Shown piece by piece: positions 4,498-64,000 of a stretch of 64,000 nucleotides of DNA. Position 1 is the first letter of the stretch. Each line of letters starts with the position of its first letter. The notes below the pieces were generated by a model that saw nothing but the letters and a program-made list of their open reading frames with translations, ran no database searches and was not told the DNA's origin. The DNA comes from Arachis hypogaea (lineage: Eukaryota; Streptophyta; Magnoliopsida; Fabales; Fabaceae), in the NCBI RefSeq assembly GCF_003086295.3, contig NC_092046.1, positions 108,169,363-108,233,362 of the forward strand, written 5' to 3'. The position numbers and the translations under genes were made by a program.

Positions 4498-4669
4498 CCC
4501 TCTCATTCACCCCTTCCCATATACACACATACACAACCCTCTCATCTCTCTCACTTTACATTCTACACAACACCCTTGCTCCTTATTCCCCCACAAGGCC
4601 GAAGCTCCCCCTCTCTTTTTCTCCATCTACATTCTTCTTCTTCTACTCCTCTCTTTTTCTTTTGTTATT

Positions 4670-4704
4670 TTGCTCAAGGACAAGCAAGGCTCTTAAGTTT
4701 GGTG
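4670..4704 (+). other. Hairpin-tail module, internal copy in E2 (degenerate)
   Basis: Arms TTGCT/AGCAA enclose an AGGA core (two mismatched inner pairs), followed by TTAAGTTTGGTG. It matches the hairpin-tail modules at 16348-16385 and 40856-40893 that precede 3' LTRs, but here it follows a CT-rich leader. The E3 insertion cuts it at about 4703. Confidence 0.5.
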
Positions 4705-6220: not shown

Positions 6221-6257
6221 AACCTCCCCACACTTAAACTAAGCATGTCCTCATGCT
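6221..6257 (-). other. E3 polypurine tract and terminal hairpin
   Basis: On the minus strand: hairpin AGCATG-AGGA-CATGCT (6242-6257), then AAGTGTGGGGAGGTT (6221-6235) directly against the 3' LTR. The purine tract is the expected plus-strand primer site. The hairpin with AGGA loop is the same layout as at 33161-33198 in E7. Confidence 0.75.
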
Positions 6258-7741: not shown

Positions 7742-7780
7742 ACCTCCCCACACTTAAAAGTTTGCACCGTCCTCGGTGCA
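7742..7780 (-). other. Hairpin-tail module, internal copy in E3
   Basis: On the minus strand a perfect 7-bp stem TGCACCG-AGGA-CGGTGCA (7763-7780) is followed by AAGTGTGGGGAGGT (7742-7755). The tail is identical to the terminal polypurine tract at 6221. The stem is unrelated to the terminal one (AGCATG), but the AGGA loop is kept. It corresponds to 31847-31883 in E7, which lies just after the third ORF. Confidence 0.75.
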
Positions 7781-16347: not shown

Positions 16348-16385
16348 GTTGCTTGAGGACAAGCAACAGTTTTAGTTTGGTGTTG
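16348..16385 (+). other. Terminal hairpin-tail module of E2
   Basis: A perfect 8-bp stem GTTGCTTG-AGGA-CAAGCAAC (16348-16367), then AGTTTGGTGTTG ending exactly at the LTR start (16386). It occupies the place of a polypurine tract. Compare 40856-40893 (E8), 52238-52259 (E11), 55438-55459 (E12) and 33161-33198 (E7). Confidence 0.8.
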
Positions 16386-17838: not shown

Positions 17839-19227
17839 GTTTGAGATTGACAAACTAACGGTAGTCTTGTTCCTTAGATCAGGTATCCTTTATTTGTTTT
17901 CTTTCAATTTTTGTGTTTCTTGTTTTTTCATTTTCAAAAACTTTTCAAAACCTTTTCTTTTCTTTAATCTTTGTCTTTTATTTGAGTCTTGTGTGAATTC
18001 TTAAGTTTGGTGTCAGTTAGGTTTGTACTGTTCTGTCTTTTGGGCTTTAGTTGGTATCTCTTTTCTTGAGTTTTTGAAAACTTGTTCTTACTTTTTCTTC
18101 TTGGTATTCGAATTGTTTTTTCTATTTTCTTTGTTTGATTTAAAAATCTTTAGAGTTTGGCGTCTCTTGTGTTTTTCTTTTAAAATTTTCAAAAATAGTG
18201 TGGTTTGATCTTAAAATTTTTAAGTTTGGTGTCTTTTTGTGTTTTCCCTTTCAATTTTCAAAAATCTTACCTTTTGTTTTCCAAAAATTTTAAGTTTGGT
18301 GTCCTAATTAGTTATCTTTTCACTTATCTTTTCAAAATTTAAAATTTTATTGTTTATCTTATTAATCTTTTTCAAATATTTATCTTATCTTTTTATCTTC
18401 CTTTGAATTTCAAGAAAAAATCTTATCTTATCTTATTTTAAATTCAAATTTTAAAAAATTCAAATTTCAGGATTTCAATTTTCAAATTTCTTGTGATCTT
18501 TTCTTGGTTTAATTTCAAAATTCAAGTTTGGTATCTTGATAGTTATCTTTTAGTGTTTATCTTGCTATCTTTTTAGATCTTCATCTTATCTTTTTCCTTT
18601 TCTTTGAATTTTAAACTTTGTTATCTTATCTTTTCTTAAATTGAATTTTAAAATTCAAATTTCAAAATTTTATCTTATCTTTATTCAATTCTAATTTTCA
18701 AAAATTTAAAATTCAAAATTCAAAATTCAATTTTCAAAGTTCAAATTTTAAAATTTAAATTCAAAATCTTTTCAAAACTTTCAAATCTTATCTTTTCTTG
18801 TTTGACTTTTTCTTTCTAATTTTAAAATTTCAAAGTATTCTTTTGACTTTCCCCTTTCAAGTTTCAAATTTTCAAAATCAAATCGTTTATTTTATTTTCA
18901 AATCTTGTTAGTTAGTTAGTTAGTTACTTGTTTTATCTTATTTCAATTTTAAAAGTTTGGTGTCTCTTTAATTCTCTTTTTCTCTTTCCTCTTTTTCAAA
19001 ACATCCTAACTACTTTCTCTTCTTTTTTTTCCGAAAGTCCTAACCTCTTTCTCTCTCTTCTTTTTTGAAAATTTCATCCCTTCGTCCCTCTCTATTTTTG
19101 AAATTATTCTTTTAAATAACCGACACCTCTATTTTCTTTTCTTTATCTCACCCCTCTCACAAGGAATCCTCTATACTCTGACATAGAATATTCCTTTCTT
19201 GTTTTTCGGTTGGTTTCATCTACTTTT
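17839..19227 (+). other. E5 long T-rich leader with repeated AAGTTTGGTGTC
   Basis: About 1.4 kb of T-rich sequence with runs of ttatcttatctt and ttcaaaattt. The 12-mer AAGTTTGGTGTC or a close variant occurs near 18003, 18142 (variant), 18222, 18292 and 18954. The same word, as AGTTTGGTGTTG, abuts the 3' LTR at 16374. No ORF is real here. Confidence 0.75.
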
Positions 19228-22495: not shown

Positions 22496-23883
22496 GTTGA
22501 GTTTGGACAAACTGCCGGATTGTCTTGCTCCCTAGATCAGGTACTTTATTTCTTGATAACTTTTAATTGAGTTTTGAGTCCTCTATTTTCATTTTCTTCT
22601 TCTTCTTTTTTCGAAAAATTAAAATCCTTTCCAAAAATATTTTTTTCTTTTCTTCAATTTATATTCTTATTGAGTCTTTGATTTTTGCAAGAGTATAACT
22701 TTGATTAGAGTCCTTTATTTTTATTTTCTTCTTCTTTAAACTTTCGAAAATATTAAAAGCTTTTTAAAAATAATTTTTATTTTATTTTTTAATTTGTATT
22801 CTTAGTTTGAGTCTTATTTTCTTGTTCTTGTTGAATTTTTCATGTTCTTGGAGTCTTTCTTTCTAAAAATTTTCAAAAGTATTTTCTTTGGTTAAATCTT
22901 GTTTCAAATCTTTAAGTTTGGTGTTTTCTTGTGTTTTTCTTTTTGTTTTTTGAAAATTTCTTGTTAGTTTTCTAAAAATTTTAAGTTTGGTGTTATTTTT
23001 ATGTTCTTGTGTTCTTTAAGTCTTTGAATATGTATTTTGTGTTCTTGTGAGTCTTCAAAGTGTTCTTGAGTCTCTTTTGTGTTTTGATCTTAAAATTTTT
23101 AAGTTTGGTGTCCCTTTGTGTTTTCCCTCCAAAAATTTTCGAAATTAAAGGGTGCTAGATCTAAAAATTTTAAGTCTTGTGTCCTTTACTTATTTTTCTC
23201 TTTCATCATTAAATTCAAAAATAAAAAAGTATCTTTTTATTTTATTTTAAGTTGAAAATTCAAATTTTAATTTTAAAATTTTTTATCTTATCTTATCTTA
23301 AATTTAAAAATTCAAAAATCAAATCTTTTCAAAATAAAAAATCATATCTTTTTCAAAATCTTATCTTATCTTATTTAAAAATTTAAAAATTTAAATTTCA
23401 AATTTCTATTCTCAAAATTTAAAAATTAAAATTTAATTTTTAATTTTTAAAATTTCAACTTTCAAAATTTGACTTTTTCAAAAATCAAAATTTTTCCAAA
23501 TCACTATCTTATCTTCGTAACTTTTTCAAAATTCAAAATTTTAAAACTTCAAAATTCAAATTCCAAAATTCAAATTTTAATCTCAATTTTCAAAATTTAA
23601 ATTTTAATTTTCAAATTTCAAATCTTAAATTCAAATCTCTTTTTAATTAGTTACTTATCTTCTCTTTCCTCTTTTTCAAAACTTCCTAACTAACTCTTCT
23701 ATCTCTCAATTTTTGAAAACTTCTCTTCCATATCTCTTTATTCTTCTTCAAATTTTATTTTCGTTTTTAGTTAATTAATTTTAATTCGGTTAAAAAAATT
23801 AATTATTGTTTATCTTATCTACTTCTATCTCTTCTTCTACTCCTTCTATCTTCTTCCTTTTTCATCCTCTACCTTTCTTAATC
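22496..23883 (+). other. E6 T-rich leader
   Basis: About 1.4 kb of T-rich leader like that of E5, with AAGTTTGGTG words near 22914, 22983 and 23101. From 23210 it is dominated by aaaattcaaattt and ttatcttatctt runs. No gene is seen. Confidence 0.75.
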
Positions 23884-26639: not shown

Positions 26640-27146
26640 ATGAATTCTCACCCCTCTCGCTTTGAGTTTGGTTCTAATATTGTTGAAAGAAGTGAAAGCT
26701 ATAACAGGAATATGCATCAAGGTCTAAGCAATCAAAGATGGATGGAGCCAGGAGGATCTGATCAACCCTTTCGGCAACAACACCTTCTGAGATATCATGG
26801 ACAAAGACCATTCTACAATGCATACCAAGCTGATAGATATGGTGGACCCACTTGTAATTACCAACAAGCCCCACCCTGTGCTTATAGACCATCCTTTCAA
26901 CGTAGATTTGAACCACCACACTCACAAGTTCCTTTCCACAATTCAGCACCATATGACCCTTATCTACCACAATCCCAATCCAATTACTCCCAAGAACCAC
27001 CACATTCTTACTTTGAACCCTCTTCCCCAACCAACGAACCTTCGCACCCACCCCAACCTCCAGTAAATGACAAACTTTGTGTTCTTCTTCAAGGGCAAGC
27101 AAAGATAAGAAAAGGGCGTACTGGAACTCACTACTGCAGTGACTAA
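26640..27146 (+). CDS. E7 ORF1, Pro/Tyr/Gln-rich protein of unknown function
   Basis: 168 codons from ATG 26640 (MNSHPSRFEFGSN); this start is chosen because E3 has the same one at 13007. The middle is low-complexity, rich in Pro, Tyr, Gln, Ser and His (PYDPYLPQSQSNYSQEPPHSYFEP). No domain recognised, and no CCHC zinc knuckle. Its place right after the primer-binding site is that of gag, so it may be a diverged nucleocapsid-like protein. ORF2 follows in another frame with an 8-base overlap; the two could be halves of one ORF broken by an indel near 27100. In the E3 copy the frame is decayed. Confidence 0.55.
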   Translation: MNSHPSRFEFGSNIVERSESYNRNMHQGLSNQRWMEPGGSDQPFRQQHLLRYHGQRPFYNAYQADRYGGPTCNYQQAPPCAYRPSFQRRFEPPHSQVPFHNSAPYDPYLPQSQSNYSQEPPHSYFEPSSPTNEPSHPPQPPVNDKLCVLLQGQAKIRKGRTGTHYCSD

Positions 27147-30404: not shown

Positions 30405-31841
30405 ATGTCTGACCCTCAAAGAAAGGGAAAAGGAAAGGCAACAACTGGCAAACGGAAACGAGGTGAATCCTCTATGTCCATCCTGGACATCATGCATGAT
30501 GACTCCTGGCGGGAAAAGCACTTTACCCCGCAGGAGAAGGCTGACCAGCTCCTCCCTGCCAATGATCTCATTAAGTTTGCAAACCGATACTGTGAGCTGA
30601 AGTATCCCGTGTTTGCCACCTCCAGGAACCTATACCTGGAGAGGACTCTGAAAATTCCAGAAGAACTACAACAGTACACCTCCGATCAGATCAAACAGAG
30701 AGGCTGGTTCTTCTTGGAGAGAAACCTGACCGAGGTCAATGCTTCCTGGGTAAGAGAGTTTTACTGCAATTATTTCAAGACTTCCCTGGATGCAGTGAAC
30801 CTCAGAGGGAAACAGATACTGGTTACTGAAGAGGCCATTGAGGATATTCTGCGCCTTCAGCCTAAGTCAGATCAGCCTGACGGTTACCAAAAGGTTGAAG
30901 AGGATATGAGGTTTCTGAGATTCGACTGGGATGCTGTCAAAGAGAGGATAGCCCTTGACCCTACTGTCCCATGGGTCATGGGTAAGAACACCACAATGCC
31001 TAAAGGAATCAAGCTTATGTATCTGAATGATGAGGCTCGGCTCTGGCACCAGATCCTGAGCAACTTTGTTATGCCGAGCACTCATGAGACGGAGCTGCCT
31101 GCTACTATGATCACCCTCTTCTGGTGTATGCTGGAGGGTAAGGACCTGTATCTGCCACGATTCATCCGTCACTATATGGCCCGGGTTCATGTCAGAGGCA
31201 CCCTTCCTTTCCCTTACCTGGTCACACAGCTAGGCCGTCGAGCTGACGTGCCTTAGGAAGATGCTGATGAGAAGCCACCTGCTGTGGACTGCAAGAAGAT
31301 TATCCCTCACAGCAGGAAATTTCGGGCTTTAGGCTATACACCTCCATTCCTGACCGCTTCTGATGAGATAGCCACGCCTTCAGCTACTCCTTCTTCTTCT
31401 ACTGCTGCACCAGCCCCACCCGCTGCACCTCCAGCTGCTCCTGAGCCTATTTACCATTTGGTGCATCGCCTCTTCGCCCGCTTGGACCGTATGGAGCGTC
31501 GCAACAAGCGACGCTATAAACACGTCAAATTGATAATCCGATCCGGCGGCGACATCTCCTCTGAGCCTGACACCCCTTCTGACATATTTGAGGCAGATGC
31601 GAGCGCTCATGAGGAGGAGACACATGCCCAGGCTGAGCAGGCAGGCCCGGAGCAGGCTGTGCCACAGCAGGAGGTGCCACACCAGATACAGGTTGCAGAT
31701 CCCGAGATTCCTATCCAGTCAGAGCTTCCACTCCAGCAGACATATCCTCCTACCCTTATCCAGTCTATAGACCTGCAGGCCACCACCGAGACTCTAGCAG
31801 CCCATCCTTCCAGTGATGACACTCCTTCACACCCAGCTTGA
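30405..31841 (+). pseudogene. E7 ORF3, 'putative plant transposon protein' with one in-frame stop
   Basis: 478 sense codons from ATG 30405 (MSDPQRKGKGKATTGKRKRGES), broken by a TAG at 31254-31256, after which the same frame continues to TGA 31839. The start is preferred to 30237 because the extra 56 residues are hydrophobic leader translation. Residues ~5-25 are Lys/Arg-rich, perhaps a nuclear signal. The globular part (W..FYCNYF, PKGIKLMYLNDEARLWHQIL, HYMARVHVRGTLPFPYLVTQL) is typical of the plant family I believe is PF20167. The tail is Pro/Ala- then Glu/Gln-rich. The stop may be a former Gln or Glu codon. It is found only next to retrotransposons here; function unknown. Confidence 0.75.
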
Positions 31842-31846
31842 GTGAG

Positions 31847-31883
31847 CATCGGGGACGATGTTTTATTTTAAGTGTGGGGAGGT
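31847..31883 (+). other. Hairpin-tail module, internal copy in E7
   Basis: Hairpin CATCG-GGGA-CGATG (31847-31860), starting 5 bases after the ORF3 stop, then AAGTGTGGGGAGGT (31870-31883). The tail equals the polypurine tract at 33185-33198. It may be a second plus-strand priming site or a marker of the ORF3 transcript. Confidence 0.75.
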
Positions 31884-33160: not shown

Positions 33161-33198
33161 TAGCATGAGGACATGCTATTGTTTAAGTGTGGGGAGGT
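33161..33198 (+). other. Terminal hairpin and polypurine tract of E7
   Basis: Perfect stem TAGCATG-AGGA-CATGCTA (33161-33178), then AAGTGTGGGGAGGT (33185-33198) directly before the 3' LTR at 33199. The purine tract is a standard plus-strand primer; the hairpin is extra. Confidence 0.85.
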
Positions 33199-36117: not shown

Positions 36118-37672
36118 GTTCGAGTTTGGACAACTGACGGTTCATCTTGTTGCTCAGATTAGGTAATTTTATTTTAATTTTAACCTTTCTGCTTTTATTA
36201 TTCTTATTTTCGAAAAAAAAATATACAAAAAAAAATTTCTTTTTCTTTTTTCGTTTTTTCAAAATTAATTTTCGAAAAACCAAAAAAATTGATAAAATCA
36301 TAAAATCAAAAAATATTTTTGTGTTTCTTGTTTGAGTCTAGAGTCAATTTTTTTAAGTTTGGTGTCTTGCATGTGTTTCTTTTTCTCAAGAATTTTTGAA
36401 AATTCATCATATGTTCTTCATGATCTTCAAGTTGTTCCTGGCCAGTCTTCTTGTTTGATCTTCATATTTTCGTATTTTGTGTCTTTTCTTCTTTTTCATA
36501 TTCATTTTTAATTTGTTAGTTTCTAAAGTTTGAAAATTTCTAAGTTTGGTGTCTTGCATGTTTTTCTTTCATTAAAAATTTTCAAAAATAAGTCTTGATG
36601 TTCATCTTGATCTTCAAAGTGTTCTTGGTGTTCATCTTGACATTCATAGTGTTCTTGCATGCATTGTGTGTTTTGATTCATAATTTTTATGTTATGAGTC
36701 TTTTTCATATTTTTCTCTCTCATCATTAAAATTCAAAAAAAAGAAATATTTTTTCCTTATTTTACTCAAAATTTTTGAAAATATGATTTGATTTAGTCAA
36801 AATTTTTTTAAATTTAATTGTTTCTTATGAATCAAATCAAATTTTCAATTTAAAAATCTTATCTTTTCAAAATCTTTTTCAAAAATCAAATCTTTTTCAT
36901 TTTACCTTCATATTTTCAAAAACTTTTTAAATTTGATTTTCAAAATCTTTTTCTTATTTTATTTCTTAATTTTCAAAATCTTTACTAACATTTAATATGA
37001 TTGATTGAAAAATTTCAAGTTGTTACTTGCTTATTAAGAAAGATTCAATCTTTAAACTCTAGAATCATATCTTTTTAGTTTCTTGTTAGTCAAGTAATCA
37101 ACTTTAGTTTTCAAAATCAAATCTTTTTAATTTTCTTTTCAAATCTTTTTCAAATTCAATTTCAAAATCTTTTCTAACTTCTTATCCTTTTAAAATTGAT
37201 TTTCAAATCTTATCTTTTTGTTTCAATCATATCTTTTTAAATTTCAATCATATCTTTTTCAAAAACAAATTTCAAAACTTTTTCAATCAATCTTATCTTT
37301 TTGTTTCAATCATATCTTTTTCAAAACTACCTAACTAATCCTCTCTCCTTTTTCAAAATTCCTTTTTAATTAACTAATTGTTTTAATTTTAATTTAATTT
37401 CAACTTTAATTTTCGAAATCTAACTTTCAATTTTAATTTTTATTTTAACTAAATTTCAAAATTCTCTCTCTCATCTCCTTCTATTTATTTATTCATCTAC
37501 TAACACTTCTCTTCCATCCAAAAATTCGAACACCACCTCCCTCTCTGTGTTCAAGTTTTCCCCTCTTCTCTTCTTTACATTACATTCTTTTCTTCTTCTG
37601 CTCACACAAAGGAATCTCTATACTGTGACATAGAGGATTCCATATTTTCTTTGTTATTCCCTTCTTTGTCAT
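36118..37672 (+). other. E8 T-rich leader
   Basis: About 1.55 kb, T-rich, with words AAGTTTGGTGTC near 36355 and 36543 and many 'aatcttatctttttcaa' runs. It ends in 'ggaatctctatactgtgacatagag' just before gag, a phrase also present before the E5 gag (19164) and E1 gag (reversed, ~1155). That short conserved stretch may matter for translation or packaging. Confidence 0.7.
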
Positions 37673-39904
37673 ATGAGCAGGAGCAAGGACAAGAACATTC
37701 TTGTTGAAGCAGATCCTGAACCTGAAAGGACTCTGAAAAGGAAATTAAGAGAAGTTAAAATACAACAATCCAGAGACAACCTTACAGAAATTTTCGAACA
37801 AGAAGAGGAGATGGCAGCCGAAAATAATAATAATGCAAGGAGGATGCTTGGTGACTTTACTGCACCTAATTCTAATTTACATGGAAGAAGCATCTCCATT
37901 CCTGCCATTGGAGCAAACAATTTTGAGCTGAAACCTCAATTAGTTTCTCTGGTGCAACAGAACTGCAAGTTTCATGGACTTCCATCTGAAGATCCTTTTC
38001 AGTTCTTAACTGAGTTCTTGCAGATCTGTGATATTGTTAAGACCAATGGGGTTGATCCCGAGGTCTACAGGCTTATGCTTTTTCCGTTTGCTGTAAGAGA
38101 CAAAGCTAGAGTGTGGTTGGAATCTCAACCCAAAGATAGCCTGAACTCTTGGGATAAGCTCGTCACGGCTTTCTTAGCCAAGTTCTTTCCTCCTCAAAAG
38201 CTGAGTAAGCTTAGAGTGGATGTTCAAACCTTCAGACAGAAAGAAGGTGAATCCCTCTATGAAGCTTGGGAAAGATATAAGCGACTGACCAAAAAGTGTC
38301 CTTCTGACATGCTTTCAGAATGGACCATCCTGGATATATTCTATGATGGTCTGCCTGAATTAGCTAAGATGTCATTGGATACTTCTGCAGGTGGATCCAT
38401 TCACCTAAAGAAAATGCCTGCAGAAGCTCAAGAACTCATTGACATGGTTGCTAATAACCAGTTCATGTACACTTCTGAGAGGAATCCTGTGAGTAATAGG
38501 ACGCCTCAGAAGAAGGGAGTTCTTGAAATTGATACTCTGAATGCCATATTGGCTCAGAACAAAATATTGACTCAGCAAGTCAATATGATTTCTCAGAGTC
38601 TGAATGGAATGCAAGCTGCATCCAACAGTACTCAAGAGGCATCTTCTGAAGAAAAAGCTTATGATCCTAAGAACCCTGCAATAGCAGAGGTGAATTACAT
38701 GGGTGAACCTAATGGAAACACCTATAACCCCTCATGGAGAAATCACCTAAATTTCTCATGGAAGGATCAACAAAAGCCTCAACAAGGCTTTATTAATGGT
38801 GGAAGAAACAGGTTTAACAATAGTAAACCTTTTCCATCATCCACTCAGCAACAGACAAAGAATTCTGAGCAGAATCCATCTAGCTTAGCAAATTTAGTCT
38901 CTGATTTGTCTAAGGCCACTCTAAGTTTCATGAATGAAACAAGGTCCTCCATTAGAAATTTGGAAGCACAAGTGGGCCAGCTGAGTAAAAGGATCACTGA
39001 AACCCCTCCTAGTACTCTCCCAAGCAATACAGAAGAAAATCCAAAAGGAGAGTGCAAGGCCATTAAAATGACCATCATGGCCGAAACCACAAAAGAGGAG
39101 GAGGACGTGAATCCCAGTGAGGAAGCCCTCCTGGGACGTCCAGAGATCAATAAGGAGTTTCCCTCTGAGGAACCAAAGGATTCTGAGGCTCATCTAGAGA
39201 CCATAGAGATTCCATTAAACCTCCTTATGCCATTCATGAGCTCTGATGAGTATTCTTCTTCTGAAGAGAATGAAGATGTTACTGAAGAGCAAGTTGCCAA
39301 GTACCTTGGTGCAATCATGAAGCTGAATGCCAAATTATTTGGTAATGAGACTTGGGAAGATGAACCTCCCTTGCTCACCAATGAACTGAGTGATCTGGAT
39401 CAACTGAAATTGCCTCAGAAGAAACAGGATCCTGGAAAGTTCTTAATACCTTGCACCATAGGCACCATGACCTTTGAGAAGGCTCTATGTGACCTTGGGT
39501 CAGGGATAAACTTCATGCCCCTATCTGTAATGGAGAAACTGGGAATCTTTGAGGTGCAAGCTGCCAGAATCTCATTAGAGATGGCAGAAAACTCAAGAAA
39601 ACAGGCTTATGGTCAGGTAGAGGACGTGTTAGTAAAGGTTGAAGGCCTTTACATCCCTGCTGATTTCATAATCATGGATACTGGGAAGGATGAGGATGAA
39701 TCCATCATTCTTGGAAGACCCTTCCTAGCCACAGCAAGAGCTGTGATTGATGTGGACAGAGGAGAATTGATCCTTCAACTGAATGAGGACTCCCTTGTGT
39801 TGAAAACTCACGGTTCTCCTTCTGTAACCATGGAGAGGAAGCATGAAAAGCTTCTCTCACTGCAGAGTCAACCAAAGCCCCCACAGTCAAACTCTAAGTT
39901 TTAA
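37673..39904 (+). CDS. E8 gag-pro polyprotein, intact
   Basis: 743 codons from ATG 37673 (MSRSKDKN). Residues ~1-95: conserved N-terminal arm (PERTLKRKLRE, ISIPAIGANNFELKPQLVSLVQQNC). Residues ~136-230: Retrotrans_gag core (RDKARVWLESQP, FFPPQKLSKLRVDVQTFRQKEGESLYEAWERYKRL, LDIFYDGL), the capsid. Residues ~235-580: flexible Asn/Gln/Glu-rich linker with a coiled-coil-like part; no CCHC zinc knuckle. Residues ~586-700: retropepsin-like domain with CDLGSGINFMPLSV (Asp near 607), flap-like region and ILGRPFLATARAVIDV. The active-site triad is D-L-G rather than D-T/S-G, as in related plant elements. It ends ~45 residues later with no pol. Capsid assembly in the cytoplasm is the expected role; the protease may be inactive or atypical. 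Confidence 0.92.
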   Translation: MSRSKDKNILVEADPEPERTLKRKLREVKIQQSRDNLTEIFEQEEEMAAENNNNARRMLGDFTAPNSNLHGRSISIPAIGANNFELKPQLVSLVQQNCKFHGLPSEDPFQFLTEFLQICDIVKTNGVDPEVYRLMLFPFAVRDKARVWLESQPKDSLNSWDKLVTAFLAKFFPPQKLSKLRVDVQTFRQKEGESLYEAWERYKRLTKKCPSDMLSEWTILDIFYDGLPELAKMSLDTSAGGSIHLKKMPAEAQELIDMVANNQFMYTSERNPVSNRTPQKKGVLEIDTLNAILAQNKILTQQVNMISQSLNGMQAASNSTQEASSEEKAYDPKNPAIAEVNYMGEPNGNTYNPSWRNHLNFSWKDQQKPQQGFINGGRNRFNNSKPFPSSTQQQTKNSEQNPSSLANLVSDLSKATLSFMNETRSSIRNLEAQVGQLSKRITETPPSTLPSNTEENPKGECKAIKMTIMAETTKEEEDVNPSEEALLGRPEINKEFPSEEPKDSEAHLETIEIPLNLLMPFMSSDEYSSSEENEDVTEEQVAKYLGAIMKLNAKLFGNETWEDEPPLLTNELSDLDQLKLPQKKQDPGKFLIPCTIGTMTFEKALCDLGSGINFMPLSVMEKLGIFEVQAARISLEMAENSRKQAYGQVEDVLVKVEGLYIPADFIIMDTGKDEDESIILGRPFLATARAVIDVDRGELILQLNEDSLVLKTHGSPSVTMERKHEKLLSLQSQPKPPQSNSKF

Positions 39905-40855: not shown

Positions 40856-40893
40856 GTTGCTTGGGGACAAGCAACAATTTAAGTTTGGTATTG
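40856..40893 (+). other. Terminal hairpin-tail module of E8
   Basis: Perfect 8-bp stem GTTGCTTG-GGGA-CAAGCAAC (40856-40875), then AAGTTTGGTATTG up to the LTR start at 40894. Same stem as E2 but loop GGGA instead of AGGA. Confidence 0.8.
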
Positions 40894-46525: not shown

Positions 46526-46554
46526 CAACACCAAACTTAAATCTTGCTTGTCCC
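46526..46554 (-). other. Half of a terminal hairpin-tail module, cut by E10
   Basis: On the minus strand GGGA-CAAGCAAGA then TTTAAGTTTGGTGTTG, exactly the loop and right arm seen in E11 (52238-52259). The left arm is missing because E10 inserted at the loop boundary (46554/46555). Confidence 0.7.
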
Positions 46555-49542
46555 TGATAAACCACTATTTTATGGTTTATATTGTGTTTAATTGTGTGGT
46601 TTTATCAAATCTTTACCCACTTATTCATTAAATAAGCATGCATTTATAATTCCTTCCTAAAAATGCTTTATGGTTGAAAACTTGCTTCCTAGAAACTTTT
46701 AATTTTGTATTTTAATTCTCCTTTATTCCATTCGATGCCGTGATCTGTGTGTTAAGTGTTTCAGGCTTTATAGGGCATGAATGACTTGGAGATTAGAAAA
46801 GAAGCTTGCAAAAATGGAAGGAACACAAGAAATTAAGAAGATGACCAGTGAGAAGTGACGTGGGCACATGGCTCACGCGACCGCGTGATATAGAGGAAAT
46901 TGCAGCGACGCGGACGCATGGCTCACGCGACCGCACGGATTGGAAACTGCACCAGTGACGCGAAGGCGTGGACGACGCGATCGCGTGGCAAGGCAAAACG
47001 CTAGATAACGCGAACGCCTGGATAACGCGATCGCGTGACATGTGCGATCTGCAGAATCTGCAGAATTCGCTGGGGGCGATTTTGGGCCCTGTTTTGACCC
47101 AGCTTTCGGCCCAGAAAAGCAAATTAGAGCCAGGGATCATGCAGAGACAGAAAATAACATTCATTCCACCTAATTTTAGTTTTTAGATCTGATTTTACCT
47201 CTCCTCTAGGTTTTCTCTCTACACATTCATAGTTCTTAGGATTTGATTTTATTGCTTTTTGGATTGGGACATTGAGAAGAGTTATTGCCTCCGTCAAGAC
47301 TTCGTCATTCTAGTTTGTTTCCTTACTTGTCACTTACTCTTTCATGTCCTTTATTTACTCAGAGTTACTCTTGGATTATTTCTAGAATTTATTTATACAT
47401 GAATTATTTTTATTTTTAATTGATCCTTTTGATTATTATTTATTATGTCTTTCAGTATTTCTCTTCCTTATTTTGTGAAATTTACATTCATAATGAGCGA
47501 GTAGTTCCATGACTTGATTGGGAGATGATTGAAAGGAAACCTTGAGTTGGATTACTCAAGAGAAAAATTGTAATTGGGTTTATTGTTGGATCGCCCTCTA
47601 GTCATTGACACTAGTCCTTCTCAAGGGAGAGGATTAGGACTTGTGACTAGAAATAGCTTTCCAACTTGCTTGAATTTCCTCTACCTAGTAAAGGGTAACT
47701 AAGCAGAACAACCTTCAATTATCAATTAATCTTGAGAGTACTCCAACAAGAATAAGGCTTCCAACTAATCTACTCCCAGTCAAGGTTTTTATTTAAAATT
47801 ACATAAATTCTCTAATTTAATTTCCTGTTTATCAACTTAAACCATTTTTGAAAACATCTGATTAATAAAATAGCACATCTTTCTGTAACTCGTTGGGAGA
47901 CGACTGACGTTAGAGATTTTTGCTAGTAAAGAATGTCATAAAAACAGTCGCGTTGTAGATATAGTTTCTAAACCAACAAAAATCCCTTTCGTGCAAACGT
48001 TTTGGTTGTCACAAGTAACAAACCCCTTAAAAATTGATAACCGAAGTATTCAAACCTCGGGTCGTCTTCTCAAGGAACTGCAGGGAAGTATGTTCTTATT
48101 ATTGGTTATGGAGATTGCAAATTTGGGGTTTCAAGAATGAGGAACAAATATGACAAATATTTTAAATGGTAATTAAAAATAAATAAATACTGTAAAGCAA
48201 ACTTTTGGCAAGGTATGAGAAATTAGAGGTCCTATCCTGGCTATCCTTATCAATGATGATAATAATTGAATCTTAATTCCACTTCGTTAGCCTTTACTAA
48301 TATAAAGGAAGGTCAAGGGATTAATTGGTTTGATCTTCGGATCCTATTTATTTCCTAAGAAAAGATTGAGATTATTGAAGTTCAATTCAATTAGCAAGAT
48401 AACAATTATCAATCGTGTTTGAGTTTGACAACTCCTGAGTTACTAATTTCTTAACCAAAACCAAAAGGGGAAGTAAATATACTGGAATAAAAATGTCTTC
48501 AGAGTAAAAGCAACAATAGCATAAATAAAAGAAATCAATATTAAACTGAAATACCTCAAATAACATTAATAAAAGAGTGATCTGTAACATGAAAGGATTC
48601 ATAAAGTAACTTGCAAAAGTAAATAAAAAGGAATATTGAACCTGGCCAAAAGAGATAATCTTGAAAGCAAATAAAAATCCTAAATCTAAATCCTAATCCT
48701 AAAGAGAGAGGAGTGAACCTCTCTCCAAACTAAATTTAAATCATGGAAAGTAACTGAATTGGCGAGCTCTCCTTGAATGGATGCACTCCCTCACTTCATA
48801 ACCTCTGGTCTATGCCTTCTGGACTTGGATTTGGGCCAAAAAAGGCTTCAAAATTTGCTATGAGCGTTTCTGCAATTTTTGGTGCGTGGCCTTTGTCACG
48901 AGTCCGCGTGGGTCACGCGGTCGCGTCATTCGGAGCTTTTCTTGTCACGCGGTCGCGTCAGTCATGCGGCCGCATCGTATGTGTTTTGCTTAAGGCGCGC
49001 GGTCGCGTCAGTCATGCGGCCGCGTCGCTGTTGATTCGCGCTTGGCATGCGTCCGCGTCGCCCATGCGATCGTGTGGATACCAGTTTCTTCAGAAACTCC
49101 ATTTTGCGCTTTCCTTCCATTTTTGTATGTTTCCTTTCCATCCTTTAAGTCATTCCTGCCTTAGAGGATCTGAAACTACTCAACACACTAATCACGGCAT
49201 CGAATGGAAATAAAGGTAATTAAAATAATTAATTTAAAAGCATAGGAAACATGTTTTTCACATACATCACATAATAAGGAAGGGGAAGTAAAACCATGCA
49301 ACTAATATGAATAAGTGGGTGAAGGATTGAATAAATCACTCAAATTAACCACAAAATATATCATAAAATATGGGTTTATCAACGACCTGGGATTCATACT
49401 CCCAATATTTTAATTTTAATTTTAATTTTAATTTTTGTGACAACCCTTCTAAATTGATAAATGGATTTTCGGTTGGTTAAGAACTGTACTTGCAACGTAT
49501 CTCTTATAATAATTTCTTAACTCGCCAATTTCCGCCACGTCA
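46555..49542 (+). repeat. E10 5' LTR, interrupted by a solo LTR
   Basis: 46555-47904 plus 49387-49542 form a 1.51-kb LTR, TGATAAACCACTATT...CGCCACGTCA, of the E7/E3 class. Dyads (cacgcgaccgcgtga) at 46855-47040. A minus-strand solo LTR of a sister family lies inside. The 5 bases before it are GTCCC. Confidence 0.85.
47905..49381 (-). repeat. Solo LTR with target duplication ACGAC
   Basis: 1477 bp, right end ..tgggtttatca (start TGATAAACCC), left end TGACGTTAGAG. It is similar to the E7 LTR over most of its length. ACGAC stands at 47900-47904 and again at 49382-49386. No internal sequence remains, so the element was removed by LTR-LTR recombination. Dyads (cacgcggtcgcgtca) at 48890-49075. Confidence 0.88.
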
Positions 49543-52221: not shown

Positions 52222-52237
52222 CAACACCAAACTTAAA

Positions 52238-52259
52238 TCTTGCTTGTTCCCAAGCAAGA
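52238..52259 (-). other. Terminal hairpin-tail module of E11
   Basis: Perfect 9-bp stem, arms TCTTGCTTG and CAAGCAAGA, loop GGAA on the minus strand, then TTTAAGTTTGGTGTTG up to the LTR. Outer pairs differ from E2/E8 (C-G in place of G-C), a paired change. Confidence 0.8.
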
Positions 52260-53100: not shown

Positions 53101-55421
53101 TGATGCACATAAACTAGTTATGCTACGATTTAGGAAATTGCACGATCGGCAAAATTCCTTCCGGCAAGTGCACCGGTTATCGTCAAGTAAAAACTCACAA
53201 TAGAGTGAGGTCGAATCCCACAAGGATTGGTTGAGTGAGCAATTCGGATTAGAAGTGTGTTCTAGTTGAGCGGAATCAAGATTGAGATGAGTATTGCGGA
53301 ATGTAAAATTGGCGGGAAAAGTAAATGACAAGAAATTGAAATGGCGGAATCTTAAATTGCATGAATTAAAGAGCAGAAACTAAATTGCTGAAATTAAAAG
53401 GGGATGGGGGTGATTGCATTGAGTAGCAGAATGTAAAGAGAAAGTGGAAATCAGAAATGGGGAATTCATTGGGTTATAGGAGATATTGAGATCTCCGAAT
53501 CAAAACATGTTTATCTCTTCCTCAACCAATGCGTTCATTGAATTTTGCTTGGCAATCTTATATGATTGGATCCCAATCCCTTGGCTCACCAATTCTCTCT
53601 AAAAACAAACAAATTCCCAATCCCTTGGTTTAAATGTTCATAAGAAGAGATGATGCTCGATCACTGATTATACCACACAGTTTCATGAACCACAATTTGG
53701 TAGGATTACATGTCACAATATCCATCCAAACCCCAATCCAATTCACTGTGAGAAAGCTTCTCTAGCATGAATCCTCCATTCCTTTCCCAAGGTTCCGAAG
53801 GATTCCAAGTATGGGTAGTTTCTTTCCCAAGACAACTACCCAATGGAATTAGATCGAGAAGCTTTCTAACAAAATTCAAGAGAAAAGATTGAAGAAGAAG
53901 ATAAACTATTATTGATTCATTGAATTACAATAGAGCTCCCTAACCCAATGAAAGGGGGTTTAGTGAGTCATAGCTCTGAATTCAATTACAAAGATATGAA
54001 AACTAGCTAAAAGTGAAGGTGCCAAAGTTCCTTCTAACTTAAATTCTATCCTATTTATACACTTTCTATATTGAGCTTCTGTTGTGCTTCTTGGGCTTTG
54101 AGGCCTCTCCTTGCTTTCCTTTTGCCTTGGGTTTATGATCCATAATTTTGATGAGGCTGTTGATCCAAATTCTGTAACATTCATTGAGCCAACTTAGTGA
54201 TAATCAAATAATGACACATGACTCAATAAATTGAGATTTCAAACTCATCAATCCTTCAGGCCCAATCCCATAAACCATGATATTCAATTGGGTTTCATAC
54301 CAGAATAAGTTTAAGTTAATGTTTGTGCTCAAATACTAACTTAACCACAATATCTTTGGTCCAGAAACCTTTTCCAAGAGTGGCGTTTAAGTTGCAGTTT
54401 AAGCTTAAACTGCAGCTTAAACGCCAGACACTTCCAGTGAGGCCTTTTGTAGAAGCACGTTTAAGCTTTAGTTTAAGGTTAAACTGAAGCTTAAACGTGG
54501 AAATGGAAGAAGGCAGCCCTGGAGAGTTATGTAGTCGAACACGTTTAAGCTCCAGTTTGAGGTCAAACTGAAGCTTAAACGTGGATATAGGAAGGGCAGC
54601 CCTGGAGGTCGAACACGTTTAACCTCCAGTTTAAGGTCAAACTGGAGGTTAAACGTGGAATTGGAAGGAGGCATCCTGGAGGTCGAACACGTTTAACCTC
54701 CAGTTTAAGGTTAAACTGGAGGTTAAACGTGGAAGCTTAGAAAGGTAGCCCTGGAGGTGTCGAACACGTTTAAGCTCCAGTTTGAGGTCAAACTGGAGCT
54801 TAAACGTGGAAATGGAGAGAGCAACCCTGGAGGAGAGATCTTGGTCGAACACGTTTAAGCTCCAGTTTGAGGTCAAACTGGAGCTTAAACGTGGAAATGG
54901 CTCCCTGGTGCTTTTCCCATTCTGGCGTTTAACCTCCAGTTTGAGGTCAAACTGGAGGTTAAACGTGGAACTCCTTCCTGGGTGGCATTATCATTCTGGC
55001 GTTTAACCTCCAGTTTGAGGTCAAACTGGAGGTTAAACTTCAATTCCAGCATTTCTTAGCCTTCATGATTCTGGCGTTTAAGCTCCAGTTTAGGCTTAAA
55101 CTGGAACTTAAACTCCACATGTGATATTCAAGCTTCCTTTATTGATTTTGTTGCTTCCTTGCCTAGCCTCTTCTTCCCTGAAATCATCCAAACAATTGCA
55201 TCAAAGTCTTGCAAAATTTCATGAGAAATCTTCCATTCATAGCATTCAAGTAATATAACTAAAACTCATGGATATTGCATCAAAATCATATTGTTTGGAT
55301 GGTTCATTGCTTTGTTATTCTTTTAACCATTCTTGGTTACTTTAAGCTCAAGAAAGTGCATAAAACCACTAAAACTAACAGAAAAATACTAGTGAAACTA
55401 GCCTAAGATGCCTTGGCATCA
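53101..55421 (-). repeat. E12 3' LTR
   Basis: 2321 bp, TGATGCCAAGGC (minus strand start at 55421) to 53101. TATAAATA (reversed) at 54052-54059. An array of ten long inverted repeats at 54382-55120. Conserved downstream block at 53160-53222. Short ORFs here recur at the same offset of 9061 in the other LTR and are not genes. Confidence 0.93.
54382..55120. repeat. Array of ten long inverted repeats in the E12 LTR
   Basis: Ten near-perfect palindromes of about 38-45 bases (type gtttaagctccag..ctggagcttaaac), starting near 54382, 54459, 54540, 54613, 54687, 54766, 54849, 54923, 54996 and 55072. The period is about 70-85 bases, with linkers like 'aggcagccctggagg'. Each could fold into a hairpin of 15-20 pairs. 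Eight are repeated in the visible part of the 5' LTR (63443-64000). Confidence 0.92.
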
Positions 55422-55437
55422 CAACACCAAACTTAAT

Positions 55438-55459
55438 ACTTGCTTGTCCCTAAGCAAGT
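55438..55459 (-). other. Terminal hairpin-tail module of E12
   Basis: Arms ACTTGCTT and AAGCAAGT, loop AGGGAC on the minus strand, followed by attAAGTTTGGTGTTG up to the LTR at 55421. The innermost G-C pair of the sister copies is lost. Confidence 0.7.
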
Positions 55460-57993: not shown

Positions 57994-59013
57994 TGGTTCT
58001 TTAGTTTTGGTAAGTGACAAGCTAAAGTTGACAAGGTGAAGCAAGAAGTGTTGTTGGAAGTGTGGGGAGGTTATTTTCGGTAAGAGATAGTTTATGCTAT
58101 GATGAAGGAAATGTGCATGAAGGAGATTTGGTGGTGTTGAACTTGTTCCCCAAGTGGTTCTTTATAGTGCCCGTAAGTGCAAAATGGACGGCTAGGGTGA
58201 TTTGTGAAGGGTGGCTTGATGGTAAATATATGAGTTAGGGAGAAGGACAAATTGCTTTTCATTTTCTTGGAAGTATTCTGGGTGCATTAGGTTGTACATG
58301 TAGCTATCTTTTCTTGCAGAACTTCCTTTTCCCATGTGTTAGTTTCAAAGACTTGTGAATTTTCTTTTTGACCAAGCATCGTACCTCCCTTTGTCTTTTT
58401 CCTCCATTTTTGTCTTTTCTTTTGTACCTGCACAAACAAACAAGTTTGCTATCATTTTTCGGTCCATGTGAATTATGAATAGTACTTGCACATGTAAATC
58501 AATGATTGTCTTTATGAGCTTATAGCCGTGACTTCTACATGTATGTACACTTATTATTTGGACACCAAACTTAGTGTTTGGTCAAGTCTCCTGATGACAT
58601 GAAATCCATATTGGTTGTCCTTAATGAATGTGCTTAATTCTAATAAATCATAGTCACCTTGGCTCTTTGATTCTAAACAAATTTACTACCCTAAGTAATT
58701 GAAACCAAAGCATTAAAACATGCGAATGGTGTACTTGTCATGAATTTCGAAATCCAGAGGAACTTTGTGCTTTTCATGAACCGTGTTCAAAGAGGAACAC
58801 CAAACTTAATCCTTGGTTGTGCACTAGAAATTGAATACATTTTGAATAAAATTTTGGGGTGCCTTCAGGCACACCAAACTTAGAGGCAAATTGCATTTTA
58901 CATGCAATTTTTAGTGCACTTTTTCAGCAGTTGTCCTGAGGATTCAAGTTCATGCATAAGAAACCATGCTTTATTAGATGCACAACAAAACAAAAAAAAT
59001 AAGGGTATTAAAA
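57994..59013 (-). other. E12 spacer between gag-pro and ORF3
   Basis: No ORF. ACACCAAACTTA (reverse of the AAGTTTGGTGT tail word) occurs at 58563, 58797 and 58871. A 9-bp inverted repeat aaattgcat/atgcaattt lies beside the last one (58888-58910). These resemble the hairpin-tail theme without the AGGA loop. No GC-rich dyad array is seen here, unlike E2, E3 and E7. Confidence 0.5.
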
Positions 59014-59072: not shown

Positions 59073-61880
59073 TTAGGGTGGATTGTAGTGCTTGACGTCT
59101 TCTCCTCTCACTATGAAAACGTCCCCGCTTGATTCATTCATGACCTCTAAATGTTCCATAGAAAGAATTTTCCTGATTGTGAACACTTGAGGGAGCTGGG
59201 AAGGAATGGTTTTGAGGCCAGGTGGGATTGGCAGATAATGACTGGATATCACGTTATCTCCCGGAGAAAAACCTTCAGTGGGAATTTTCTTGTTTCTCCA
59301 CCCTCTTGGCAATCTCCCTATCACTCTTCCCTTTCTCTTGAGGATTTCTTCATTGACCCTTATGTCAGGAGGATCCTTCTGATCTGTTTCCACTGATTTT
59401 TGTGGCTTTAACTCTTGCAACTCTTGTTTGCCTTCCAAGGACTGTTTTAGAGTTTCAGCTGCTGGATTACTTTCCTCCAAACACAGATGGCTACTATCGT
59501 CCTTAGGCTTTTCAGGTTCTGGTTCAGGCTCAGATGCAGGTTTGAAAACTTTGAAAATGAGCTGTTCATCATGTATTCTCAGAATTAGCTCTCCTTGTTC
59601 TACATCTATGAGCGCTCTAGTAGTGGCTAGAAATGGTCTGCCCAGAATGATAGGGTGTAAGTAGCTTTCCTCCATGTCCACAATGACAAAGTCTGTGGGG
59701 AAGTAATAATCCCCCACTTTCACCAGCACATTTTCAACTACCCCTTCAGCTTGCTTCTGAGTTTTGTCAGCCAGTTGTATGATTACATCAGTAGATCTCA
59801 CCTCATTCAGTTGTAGCCTTTTCATAAGAGTTAGAGGCATCACATTTATGCTAGCTCCTAGATCACAGAATCCTCTGTCAATTTTTGTTTCCCCTATGAT
59901 GCAAGGGATATGAAAACTTCCAGGGTCCGTTTTCTTAGAGAGTGTGTCCTTCTTGATGAGAGCACTGCATTCTTTGTTCATGGTTACCGTTTGTCCTCCC
60001 TTCAAAACTCTTTTCTTGCTTAACAATTCCTTTAAATACTTGATGTGTGTAGGCATTTGATGGAGAATCTCAAGAAAGGGAATATTGACATGGAGAGAGT
60101 TAAATGTCTCTAGAAACCTTGAATAGGTTTTCCTTTCTTCACCTCCTCCTAACCTCTGAGGAAATGGTGCTTTTGGTTGGTATATTTCCAGCATGCCTTT
60201 TTGTAGTTCCTTGGCTTGCTCAGTTCCACTTTCCTGCTTAACTTCTTCCACACCTTCCTTCAAGATTTCTGGCTCCTGCTCTGAGGGCCTGATTCCTTCT
60301 TCTTCTGAAACTTCCTTCAATATGGTGATGGCCTTGCATTCTTCCCATCTCACTCTCTTTTGTTCCCCTTTAGGATTCTTTTCTGTGTCACTAGGGAACA
60401 CTGCAGTTGATTTGACGGCCTGTTGAGATAGCTCTCCTACTTGAGACTCCATCCTCTTGAGTTTTTCACCATGGTTTCTTAAGGTAGCTCTTACATCATC
60501 CCTGAAGCTTTTCAATTCGGTTATGTCTTGACTCATGGTTGCCATCATTCCTTCTATCCAGTTCAATTGATCTTGAAATTGTTGGTTCGGATTAGGTTGG
60601 GTAGGTTGATTATTTTGGCCATGATATGGTGGTTGAGGGTAAGTGTTTTGTGTGGTTTGGTATGATCTTTGGTTGGAGTTTTGGTATGTGGAATTGTTAT
60701 GTTGGTTGTGGTTGTAAGGTTTGTGGTTTTGTGGTTGGGTTTGTTGGTTTCCCCACCCAAAGTTTGGGTGGTTTCTCCAGCCTGGGTTGTAAGTGTTGGA
60801 ATGTGGATCATATGATTGCCTTTGTTGGTTTCCCACATAGTTAGCCTCTTCCCAATCACCTCCTTCAATGCTTACTTCCTCTTGATCTTGTGTGTGTATT
60901 GCAGCCACTTGCTTTGTTTCTAATTGCCTGGTAAGCTCTGCTAGTTGCTTGGCAAACACCTTGTTTTGGGCTAGAATTGTATCAACATGGTTCAGCTCCA
61001 TGACTCCCTTAGTGTTGTGCCTTTCTGATGCATAGTAGTACTCATTCTCAGCCACTGTCTCAATCACTTCAATGGCCTCTTCCACAGTCTTTTTCCTGTT
61101 CAATGAACCTCCTGATGAATGGTCTACAGCCTTCCTTGATTCATAAGAGAGTCCATCATAGAAGATATGCAATTGCACCTAATCATGGAACATGTCTGGT
61201 GGGCATTTCCTTGTCAAGTCCTTGAATCTCTCCCATGCCTCGTAGAAAGTTTCACCATCTTGTTGTCTAAAAGTCTGAACCTCAGATCGAAGCCTATTGA
61301 CCTTTTGTGGAGGGTAGAAACGTGCCAGAAACTTGCTTTCCACCTCATCCCATGTTGTTAGACTCCCCCTTGGGAATGATTCCAGCCACTTAGCTGCTTT
61401 GTCCCTAAGTGAAAATGGGAACAAAAGCAGTTTATAGGCATCTTCCTGGACTCCATTGGACTTCACAGTGTCACAAATTCTCAGGAATTTTGTGAGATGT
61501 TTGTTGGGATCTTCATTAGCACTTCCACCAAATGAACAATGATTCTCCACAAGTGATATTAGTTGTGGTTTGAACTCAAAATTGTTGGCCTGAATTGGTG
61601 GTTTCTGGATGCTGCTACCACAATTCCCAGAGGTTGGGTTTATGTATGAACTAAGAACCCTCCTCTCAGGAATGGCATTGTTTCCATCAGCTCTCTCATG
61701 GTTGTGAACTTCTCTATCCATGTTGAGATCTAAAGCTTCCTCAAAATTGTCCTCAGATTCTCCTTCAGATTCCTCTTCTCCCACTACTCTCTTCCCTCTT
61801 GCTTCCCTTCTCAGTCTATGAAGGGTCCTCTCTGGTTCGGTATATGGAGGAGTTGATGTCTCTCCTCTCCTACCTGTCAT
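59073..61880 (-). pseudogene. E12 gag-pro with integrase-like tail, one in-frame TAG
   Basis: Starts at ATG 61880 (MTGRRGETSTP) and runs 935 codons to 59073, broken only by TAG at 61179-61181, where the E8 homologue has Trp. Arm: PERTLHRLRREARGKRVVGEEE. Gag core: RDKAAKWLESFPRGSLTTWDEV, FYPPQKVNRLRSEVQTFRQQDGE, and LHIFYDGL after the stop. Linker: Asn/Gln/Tyr-rich, no zinc knuckle seen. Protease: CDLGASINVMPLTLMKRL, FPTDFVIVDMEE and IILGRPFLATTRALIDVEQGE. Tail: ~90 residues from RVIGRLPRGWRNKK to FIVRGEDVKHYNPP, resembling the end of integrase (a G-D-V..I..FxVxGxxxKHY pattern). This suggests an in-frame loss of the pol core. Confidence 0.85.
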
Positions 61881-62161: not shown

Positions 62162-64000
62162 TGATGCACATAAACTAGTTATGCTACGATTTAGGAAATT
62201 GCACGATCGGCAAAATTCCTTCCGGCAAGTGCACCGGTTATCATCAAGTAAAAACTCACAATAGAGTGAGGTCGAATCCCACAAGGATTGGTTGAGTGAG
62301 CAATTCGGATTAGAAGTGTGTTCTAGTTGAGCGGAATCAAGATTGAGATGAGTATTGCGGAATGTAAAATTGGCGGGAAAAGTAAATGACAAGAAATTGA
62401 AATGGCGGAATCTTAAATTGCATGAATTAAAGAGCAGAAACTAAATTGCTGAAATTAAAAGGGGATGGGGGTGATTGCATTGAGTAGCAGAATGTAAAGA
62501 GAAAGTGGAAATCAGAAATGGGGAATTCATTGGGTTATAGGAGATATTGAGATCTCCGAATCAAAACATGTTTATCTCTTCCTCAACCAATGCGTTCATT
62601 GAATTTTGCTTGGCAATCTTATATGATTGGATCCCAATCCCTTGGCTCACCAATTCTCTCTAAAAACAAACAAATTCCCAATCCCTTGGTTTAAATGTTC
62701 ATAAGAAGAGATGATGCTCGATCACTGATTATACCACACAGTTTCATGAACCACAATTTGGTAGGATTACATGTCACAATATCCATCCAAACCCCAATCC
62801 AATTCACTGTGAGAAAGCTTCTCTAGCATGAATCCTCCATTCCTTTCCCAAGGTTCCGAAGGATTCCAAGTATGGGTAGTTTCTTTCCCAAGACAACTAC
62901 CCAATGGAATTAGATCGAGAAGCTTTCTAACAAAATTCAAGAGAAAAGATTGAAGAAGAAGATAAACTATTATTGATTCATTGAATTACAATAGAGCTCC
63001 CTAACCCAATGAAAGGGGGTTTAGTGAGTCATAGCTCTGAATTCAATTACAAAGATATGAAAACTAGCTAAAAGTGAAGGTGCCAAAGTTCCTTCTAACT
63101 TAAATTCTATCCTATTTATACACTTTCTATATTGAGCTTCTGTTGTGCTTCTTGGGCTTTGAGGCCTCTCCTTGCTTTCCTTTTGCCTTGGGTTTATGAT
63201 CCATAATTTTGATGAGGCTGTTGATCCAAATTCTGTAACATTCATTGAGCCAACTTAGTGATAATCAAATAATGACACATGACTCAATAAATTGAGATTT
63301 CAAACTCATCAATCCTTCAGGCCCAATCCCATAAACCATGATATTCAATTGGGTTTCATACCAGAATAAGTTTAAGTTAATGTTTGTGCTCAAATACTAA
63401 CTTAACCACAATATCTTTGGTCCAGAAACCTTTTCCAAGAGTGGCGTTTAAGTTGCAGTTTAAGCTTAAACTGCAGCTTAAACGCCAGACACTTCCAGTG
63501 AGGCCTTTTGTAGAAGCACGTTTAAGCTTTAGTTTAAGGTTAAACTGAAGCTTAAACGTGGAAATGGAAGAAGGCAGCCCTGGAGAGTTATGTAGTCGAA
63601 CACGTTTAAGCTCCAGTTTGAGGTCAAACTGAAGCTTAAACGTGGATATAGGAAGGGCAGCCCTGGAGGTCGAACACGTTTAACCTCCAGTTTAAGGTCA
63701 AACTGGAGGTTAAACGTGGAATTGGAAGGAGGCATCCTGGAGGTCGAACACGTTTAACCTCCAGTTTAAGGTTAAACTGGAGGTTAAACGTGGAAGCTTA
63801 GAAAGGTAGCCCTGGAGGTGTCGAACACGTTTAAGCTCCAGTTTGAGGTCAAACTGGAGCTTAAACGTGGAAATGGAGAGAGCAACCCTGGAGGAGAGAT
63901 CTTGGTCGAACACGTTTAAGCTCCAGTTTGAGGTCAAACTGGAGCTTAAACGTGGAAATGGCTCCCTGGTGCTTTTCCCATTCTGGCGTTTAACCTCCAG
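62162..64000 (-). repeat. E12 5' LTR, cut by window end
   Basis: Matches 53101-54939 base for base except one position. TATAAATA (reversed) at 63113-63120. The palindrome array begins at 63443. By comparison it should end near position 64482, followed by the target duplication GTAAT. Confidence 0.93.

Follow-up and report, generated by a model that had tools for sequence, protein, structure and literature searches.

The 64,000-nt stretch of Arachis hypogaea DNA analysed here (the window) raises the question of what a small hairpin, standing shortly before the 3' LTRs of several retrotransposons, does for the elements that carry it. The window consists of nested LTR retrotransposons, whose LTR starts, primer sites and repeats were located by comparing the window with itself and by pattern searches. 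An earlier note on this DNA had listed six such hairpins, each followed by a conserved tail, and had assigned them to unrelated LTR families. All six were found in place in the window sequence, while the word "unrelated" was overstated, as the gag proteins of E8 and E12 are 46% identical, PF20167 occurs in both E7 and E12, the 18-nt primer site is identical in E7, E8 and E12, and all seven LTRs preceded by the tail begin with TGAT. Judged from their letters, the carriers are diverged kin.

We take the host elements to be Ty3/gypsy retrotransposons of the Athila/Tat type, and we regard, as our own assumption, the gag, the primer site and the extra frame as marks of the Athila/Tat (OTA) lineage. 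The Athila and Tat clades are tabulated in PMC6317226. Retrotrans_gag and PF20167 were both detected in the window; the E7 open frame at 27109 had no similarity to the E8 and E12 gag proteins, and no reverse transcriptase, RNase H or integrase family was found among the 45 open segments of at least 110 aa. Among the 15 relatives of one window protein, 12 were named, all of them from Arachis hypogaea. These copies seem to be non-autonomous, and a module kept in such copies is what would be expected of a cis signal. At gathering score, Rfam gave two matches in the window, both to snoR71 (RF00097) and both away from the hairpins, at 38207-38314 (-) and 61192-61295 (+). They are antisense to the gag frames of E8 and E12, in parts that are homologous, and suggest either that gag holds an antisense stretch resembling a snoRNA or that members of that family arose from a retrotransposon.

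The tail lies directly before the 3' LTR at all seven tail-bearing LTR starts, and at six of these it is preceded by a hairpin with a stem of 6 to 9 bp, the shortest being that of E3 with 6 bp (Table 1). Both stem arms end before the LTR at 6/6 intact junctions, with 20, 21, 18, 18, 16 and 16 nt from the stem foot to the LTR in E7, E3, E2, E8, E11 and E12, respectively (range, 16 to 21 nt), and the end of the loop lies 27, 27, 26, 26, 25 and 25 nt from the LTR in the same order (25 to 27 nt in 6/6). The seventh hairpin, in a further LTR family (E10), is split by another LTR; its 5' arm is missing because that LTR begins precisely at the loop of the hairpin (46555, +), so that an element had inserted into the palindrome, and no second half of the split hairpin was found nearby. 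For E2 and E8, the tail given previously (AAGTTTGGTG) is exact in neither element, the sequences being TTTTAGTTTGGTG and TTTAAGTTTGGTATTG, respectively. The E12 hairpin, which had been listed as a weaker one, is indeed present, and what had been called weaker is an 8-bp stem on the minus strand with a hexaloop, formed because the pair that would close a tetraloop is A.C. Over 1840 bp, the in-window parts of the E12 LTRs have 99.946% identity, so a recently inserted element carries the hairpin in this form, and old decay is not its cause. The E12 LTRs also contain an inverted-repeat array with stems of 17 to 20 bp, at 54614-55038 and 63675-63954. E11 and E12 (52260 and 55460, minus strand) resemble each other from the hairpin, across the tail, to the LTR start but differ upstream of the hairpin, which may be a recombination border in these two elements. 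No LTR was recognised behind the decayed copy at 4668.

Table 1. Hairpin and tail modules in the window (positions count from the first nucleotide of the window)
Feature	Positions	Strand	Hairpin	Tail	LTR
E7 terminal module	33161-33198	+	TAGCATG-AGGA-CATGCTA, 33161-33178	33182-33198	from 33199
E3 terminal module	6221-6257	-	AGCATG-AGGA-CATGCT, 6242-6257	6221-6238	from 6220 downwards
E2 terminal module	16348-16385	+	GTTGCTTG-AGGA-CAAGCAAC, 16348-16367	16370-16385	from 16386
E8 terminal module	40856-40893	+	GTTGCTTG-GGGA-CAAGCAAC, 40856-40875	40878-40893	from 40894
E11 terminal module	52222-52259	-	9-bp stem, GGAA loop, 52238-52259	52222-52237	from 52221 downwards
E12 terminal module	55422-55459	-	8-bp stem, hexaloop AGGGAC, 55438-55459	55422-55437	from 55421 downwards
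E10	46526-46554	-	3' half; 5' arm missing	present
Decayed copy	4668-4701	+	TTGCTCA-AGGA-CAAGCAA, 4668-4689; two inner pairs lost	TTAAGTTTGG
E7 internal module	31845-31883	+	AGCATCG-GGGA-CGATGTT, 31845-31862; one G-T pair	31867-31883
E3 internal module	7742-7780	-	TGCACCG-AGGA-CGGTGCA, 7763-7780	7742-7758

The hairpins are not chance. When the 60 nt before each LTR were dinucleotide-shuffled 5000 times (leaving out the 4668 copy, which has no LTR after it), the observed stem was matched by 34 shuffles for E7, 86 for E3, 15 for E2, 13 for E8, 2 for E11 and 28 for E12. The hairpins are thus commoner than in shuffled flanks at the six intact junctions (2 to 86 of 5000), as the earlier note had required of them. 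At the split E10 junction the stem was matched in 1527/5000 shuffles, and for the internal copies described below in 82/5000 (E3) and, counting strict pairs, 597/5000 (E7), the latter not being significant alone. The best stems at six tail-less LTR starts (the 5' LTRs of E2, E3, E7 and E8 and the LTRs at 46555 and 49381) were of 3 to 6 bp, none of them with an RGRA loop, and the 6-bp stem at the E3 5' LTR was itself unusual (209/5000 shuffles). Window-wide, 12.5% of 60-mers contained a stem of at least 6 bp and 5.5% one of at least 7 bp.

A descriptor that called for an RGRA loop, 6 or more of 7 pairs formed (G-U allowed) and a tail start 6 to 13 nt past the loop had eight matches in the window, compared to none in 140 control loci (1.2 Mb), which were chosen by pattern, mostly by loop and tail letters, and none in 100 simulated first-order Markov windows. 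Without the tail, the same descriptor gave 62 window matches against 43.9 expected. No stem longer than 4 bp was present at 16 prokaryote or viral sites picked by loop and tail letters only, and in further pattern-matched viral stretches there was, among the matches listed, one 4-bp stem and none longer. Four viral stretches that matched the primer-site pattern were judged unrelated from their local sequence, and pattern scans of viral and genome contigs yielded no element recognisable as coming from a plant.

Matched pair changes in the stem beside a constant loop and tail, as selection on a structure predicts and as had been proposed for these hairpins, were borne out in a gap-free alignment of nine rows (A1), from which the E10 half hairpin was left out and in which the decayed 4668 copy, adding unpaired cells, was kept. 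Double changes were observed at 8/9 stem pairs, and 86.4% of the cells were paired, compared to 61.3% with partners shuffled; the covariation score was 0.685 against 0.213 in the shuffles, 0/500 of which reached it. Pairing fell to 24.7 to 44.4% when the partner was slid by 1 to 3 columns. Furthermore, own arms pair at 6.6/7 positions, against 3.5 when the two arms are taken from different stem types, and the true arm pairing was the best of the 24 permutations of four stem types, which is the upper limit for such a sample. Seven rows have G-C as the innermost pair and two have A.C, and the loop is RGRA in 9/9 rows while the stem varies. The sample is one 64-kb window with four stem types and related rows. 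The inner stem is one sequence in E2, E8, E11 and E12, nearly one inner stem is common to five of the nine rows, and the independent evidence therefore amounts to the four stem types, internal copies included. A MAFFT alignment that included the tail (A2; E10 and the 4668 copy left out) gapped the stem, and A1 together with the descriptor scan was therefore used instead of a covariance model from A2. A transcription-factor palindrome was ruled out, as the stem letters differ.

Matched changes could also come about without selection on the hairpin, if template switching during replication or reverse transcription made and repaired perfect inverted repeats. Such a mechanism is described for RNA genes (PMC8794818), and the changes seen here do span several neighbouring pairs together. 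It leaves unexplained, however, the fixed loop, tail and spacing, as well as the presence of the hairpin at 6/7 tail-bearing junctions against 0/6 tail-less LTR starts, and hairpins of the tail-less descriptor (62 in the window) are just somewhat above expectation. We consider this origin of the covariation very unlikely.

Separate scans for the tail and for the hairpin added to those listed before the split hairpin of E10, the decayed 4668 copy and two internal hairpin-plus-tail copies, in E3 and E7. The internal copies lie approximately 1.5 kb (E3) and 1.3 kb (E7) before the 3' LTR, and in both the hairpin is followed by 4 nt and then TTTAAGTGTGGGGAGGTCG. In a global alignment, the flanks of these copies are unalignable beyond noise, the loop and the 17-nt tail align, and the stems differ yet pair. 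The hairpin thus accompanies the tail even without an LTR behind it, and its function is therefore most likely tied to the tail, which strengthens a role in priming. We conclude that the hairpin is a structure-selected element that goes with the PPT-like tail and not with the LTR, and that a priming role is, on sequence grounds, plausible.

The E7 internal module begins 3 nt past the stop codon of the frame 31257-31838, a position that would suit an element close to a coding frame's 3' end that serves RNA processing, stability or translation. The terminal copies of E7 and E3, by contrast, stand more than 1 kb from the coding-frame region and directly before the LTR, and no Rfam family reached the gathering score at the hairpins, so we regard such an element as highly improbable. 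A known Rfam element was rejected on the same score, and a coding origin of the terminal copies was likewise considered and rejected.

Tails were also found without the hairpin. A loose tail pattern had 24 matches in the window, of which 8 carry an intact hairpin, 1 a split and 1 a decayed one, and 14 none of this kind. For AAGTGTGGGGAGGT, the hairpin is present at 4/5 window copies; the fifth exact copy, at 58058-58071 (+), is hairpin-less and lies on the strand opposite to E12, inside a frame that encodes PF20167 further on. Twelve copies of the tail motif AGTTTGGTGT off the LTR junctions have no RGRA hairpin (18004-18954, 22915-23102 and 36356-36552 on the plus strand; 58571-58880 on the minus strand), nine of them at plus-strand sites and three in the E12 interior. 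Those at 36356 and 36543 sit between the E8 primer site and gag, and one in the E12 interior is preceded by a different 9-bp hairpin with the loop GTAAA.

In predicted folds of 204-nt contexts, pairs p2 to p6 had a probability of at least 0.85 at 37°C and at least 0.79 at 25°C in the eight intact copies, and no hairpin was predicted for the decayed 4668 copy. Whole regions of 131 nt had a z below -2 against shuffles in only 3/8 cases (E7, E3 internal and E11), and the minimum-energy fold of the 131-nt E2 region was without the hairpin, though its pairs are probable in the 204-nt context. Predicted exposure of the tail was low across the eight copies (mean unpaired, 0.06 to 0.48 at 37°C), most of the tail being paired in E7, E3 and the two internal copies (0.06 to 0.25) and part of it in the others (0.30 to 0.48). 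In E7, E3 and E7 internal, the TTTAAG within the tail can form an outer helix with CTTGAG-like letters 5' of the hairpin, which was not found in every copy. In E11 alone, the fold adds a 9-bp pairing from upstream into the LTR start.

Our preferred reading, to which we give about an even chance, is that hairpin and tail belong together as a single cis-acting module of the plus-strand primer site (PPT), in which the tail is the primer and the hairpin aids its choice and cutting. We infer that the module acts as RNA, in priming, and by pausing. At its fixed distance upstream in the genomic RNA, the hairpin would help reverse transcriptase and RNase H to choose and cut the tail primer. During minus-strand synthesis, the enzyme would copy U3 and the tail and then pause at the 3' foot of the stem, perhaps stalling there with its RNase H approximately 16 to 21 nt behind, at the tail/LTR junction, where a cut would free the primer end. 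Such pausing might let a tail that is not purely of purines (AGTTTGGTGTTG) act as a primer, and at the internal copies of E3 and E7 the plus strand would have a second start site. For HIV-1 reverse transcriptase, 18 bp between the polymerase and the RNase H cut are given in PMC3185654, and PMC3187697 reports that reverse transcriptase stalls at hairpin bases and that pausing raises RNase H cuts. The distance of 16 to 21 nt from stem foot to LTR is near the former value, and together with the reported stalling this makes the pause model a reasonable one.

Several observations count against the priming model: the 14 of 24 tail matches that are hairpin-less, among the exact copies the one at 58058, the z values below -2 in only 3/8 regions, the E2 minimum-energy fold, the low predicted exposure of the tail, and the 597/5000 shuffles for the E7 internal copy. 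In addition, the loop distance (25 to 27 nt) is steadier than the stem-foot distance (16 to 21 nt), and this suits a factor that binds the loop better than it suits a pause at the foot. The hairpin could accordingly be a protein-binding RNA element serving packaging, dimerization or recognition by Gag or nucleocapsid, in which case the exposed RGRA loop would be recognised in the genomic RNA and the closeness of the hairpin to the PPT would be of secondary importance. The constancy of the loop in all nine rows despite the varying stem agrees with this, as does a loop-to-LTR distance that is steadier than the stem length. Of the loops, GGGA and GGAA fit the GNRA pattern, whereas AGGA does not. 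Packaging alone, however, gives no account of the fixed spacing to tail and LTR or of the hairpin and tail being repeated internally, and we judge a protein-binding role of this kind to be unlikely.

The signal might instead act at the DNA level, as a cruciform or as a hairpin in single-stranded minus-strand DNA that works on the cDNA, for instance as a stop for upstream plus strands, a cap stacking on the primer duplex or an integration target. The stems pair equally well as DNA, save for the G-T pair of the E7 internal copy. The sequence gives no separation of this reading from the RNA model. The LTR inserted exactly at the loop at 46555 would fit an integration target, but it is a single anecdote, and a published survey reports a weak palindrome preference only (PMC6911290). 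A DNA-level signal appears quite unlikely to us.

Returning to priming by hairpin and tail, a wider version can be formulated as a lineage-wide selector, in which a covarying RNA hairpin would stall reverse transcriptase, RNase H would cut at a set distance, and the hairpin would mark the PPT in place of a high purine content, for internal as well as terminal starts, in plant elements of the Athila/Tat type. This generalization seems doubtful. Being compact, covarying and precisely spaced, the hairpin offers a direct handle for arm-by-arm mutation and rescue, and, if general, it would aid the placing of 3' LTR borders and the finding of non-autonomous copies in plant genomes.

The earlier note had known of no description of this module, and the open-access literature searched likewise gave no account of such a hairpin. 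In the consulted text of a 2025 survey of Retand elements (PMC11963269), "hairpin" and "inverted" are absent, and "palindrom" and "PPT" occur in other connections only. In retroviral and Ty3 PPTs, as proposed here, plus-strand DNA synthesis starts from a short RNA segment that RNase H has cut at the U3 junction; according to the excerpts of PMC3185511 and PMC5371799, however, these are purine tracts read mainly via the geometry of the RNA/DNA hybrid, and no upstream hairpin was found in those texts. In Diaspora of soybean, a legume element of the Athila lineage, the PPT likewise abuts the 3' LTR; the words hairpin, stem-loop and inverted repeat are absent from the text of that paper (PMC1142308). 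In Athila4 and Calypso a further PPT follows pol and precedes the 3' LTR, similar to the second PPT-like tail 1.3 to 1.5 kb before the 3' LTR in E3 and E7, and the passages of PMC2829016 consulted mention no hairpin for it.

The closest described relative is the PPT inverted repeat of Sireviruses, which about half of the remaining Ty1/copia elements in that study also have (PMC2829016). Both systems have a base-paired structure fixed at the junction of PPT and 3' LTR as well as extra PPT copies upstream, and the Sirevirus repeat has been proposed to help or guide RNase H. In Sireviruses, however, the arms enclose the PPT, with the right arm inside the LTR, they average 28 bp and are conserved in sequence, and the upstream PPTs are repeat-less (PMC2829016). 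In the peanut module, which belongs to another superfamily, both arms stand before the tail, so that the tail is not in the loop and the right arm is not in the 3' LTR; the loop is of 4 to 6 nt and the stems vary by matched pairs. The hairpin-less AGTTTGGTGT copies resemble the repeat-less upstream PPTs of Sireviruses, whereas both internal AAGTGTGGGGAGGT-type tails have a hairpin. The module thus differs from the Sirevirus repeat in its topology, its varying stems and its accompanying internal copies.
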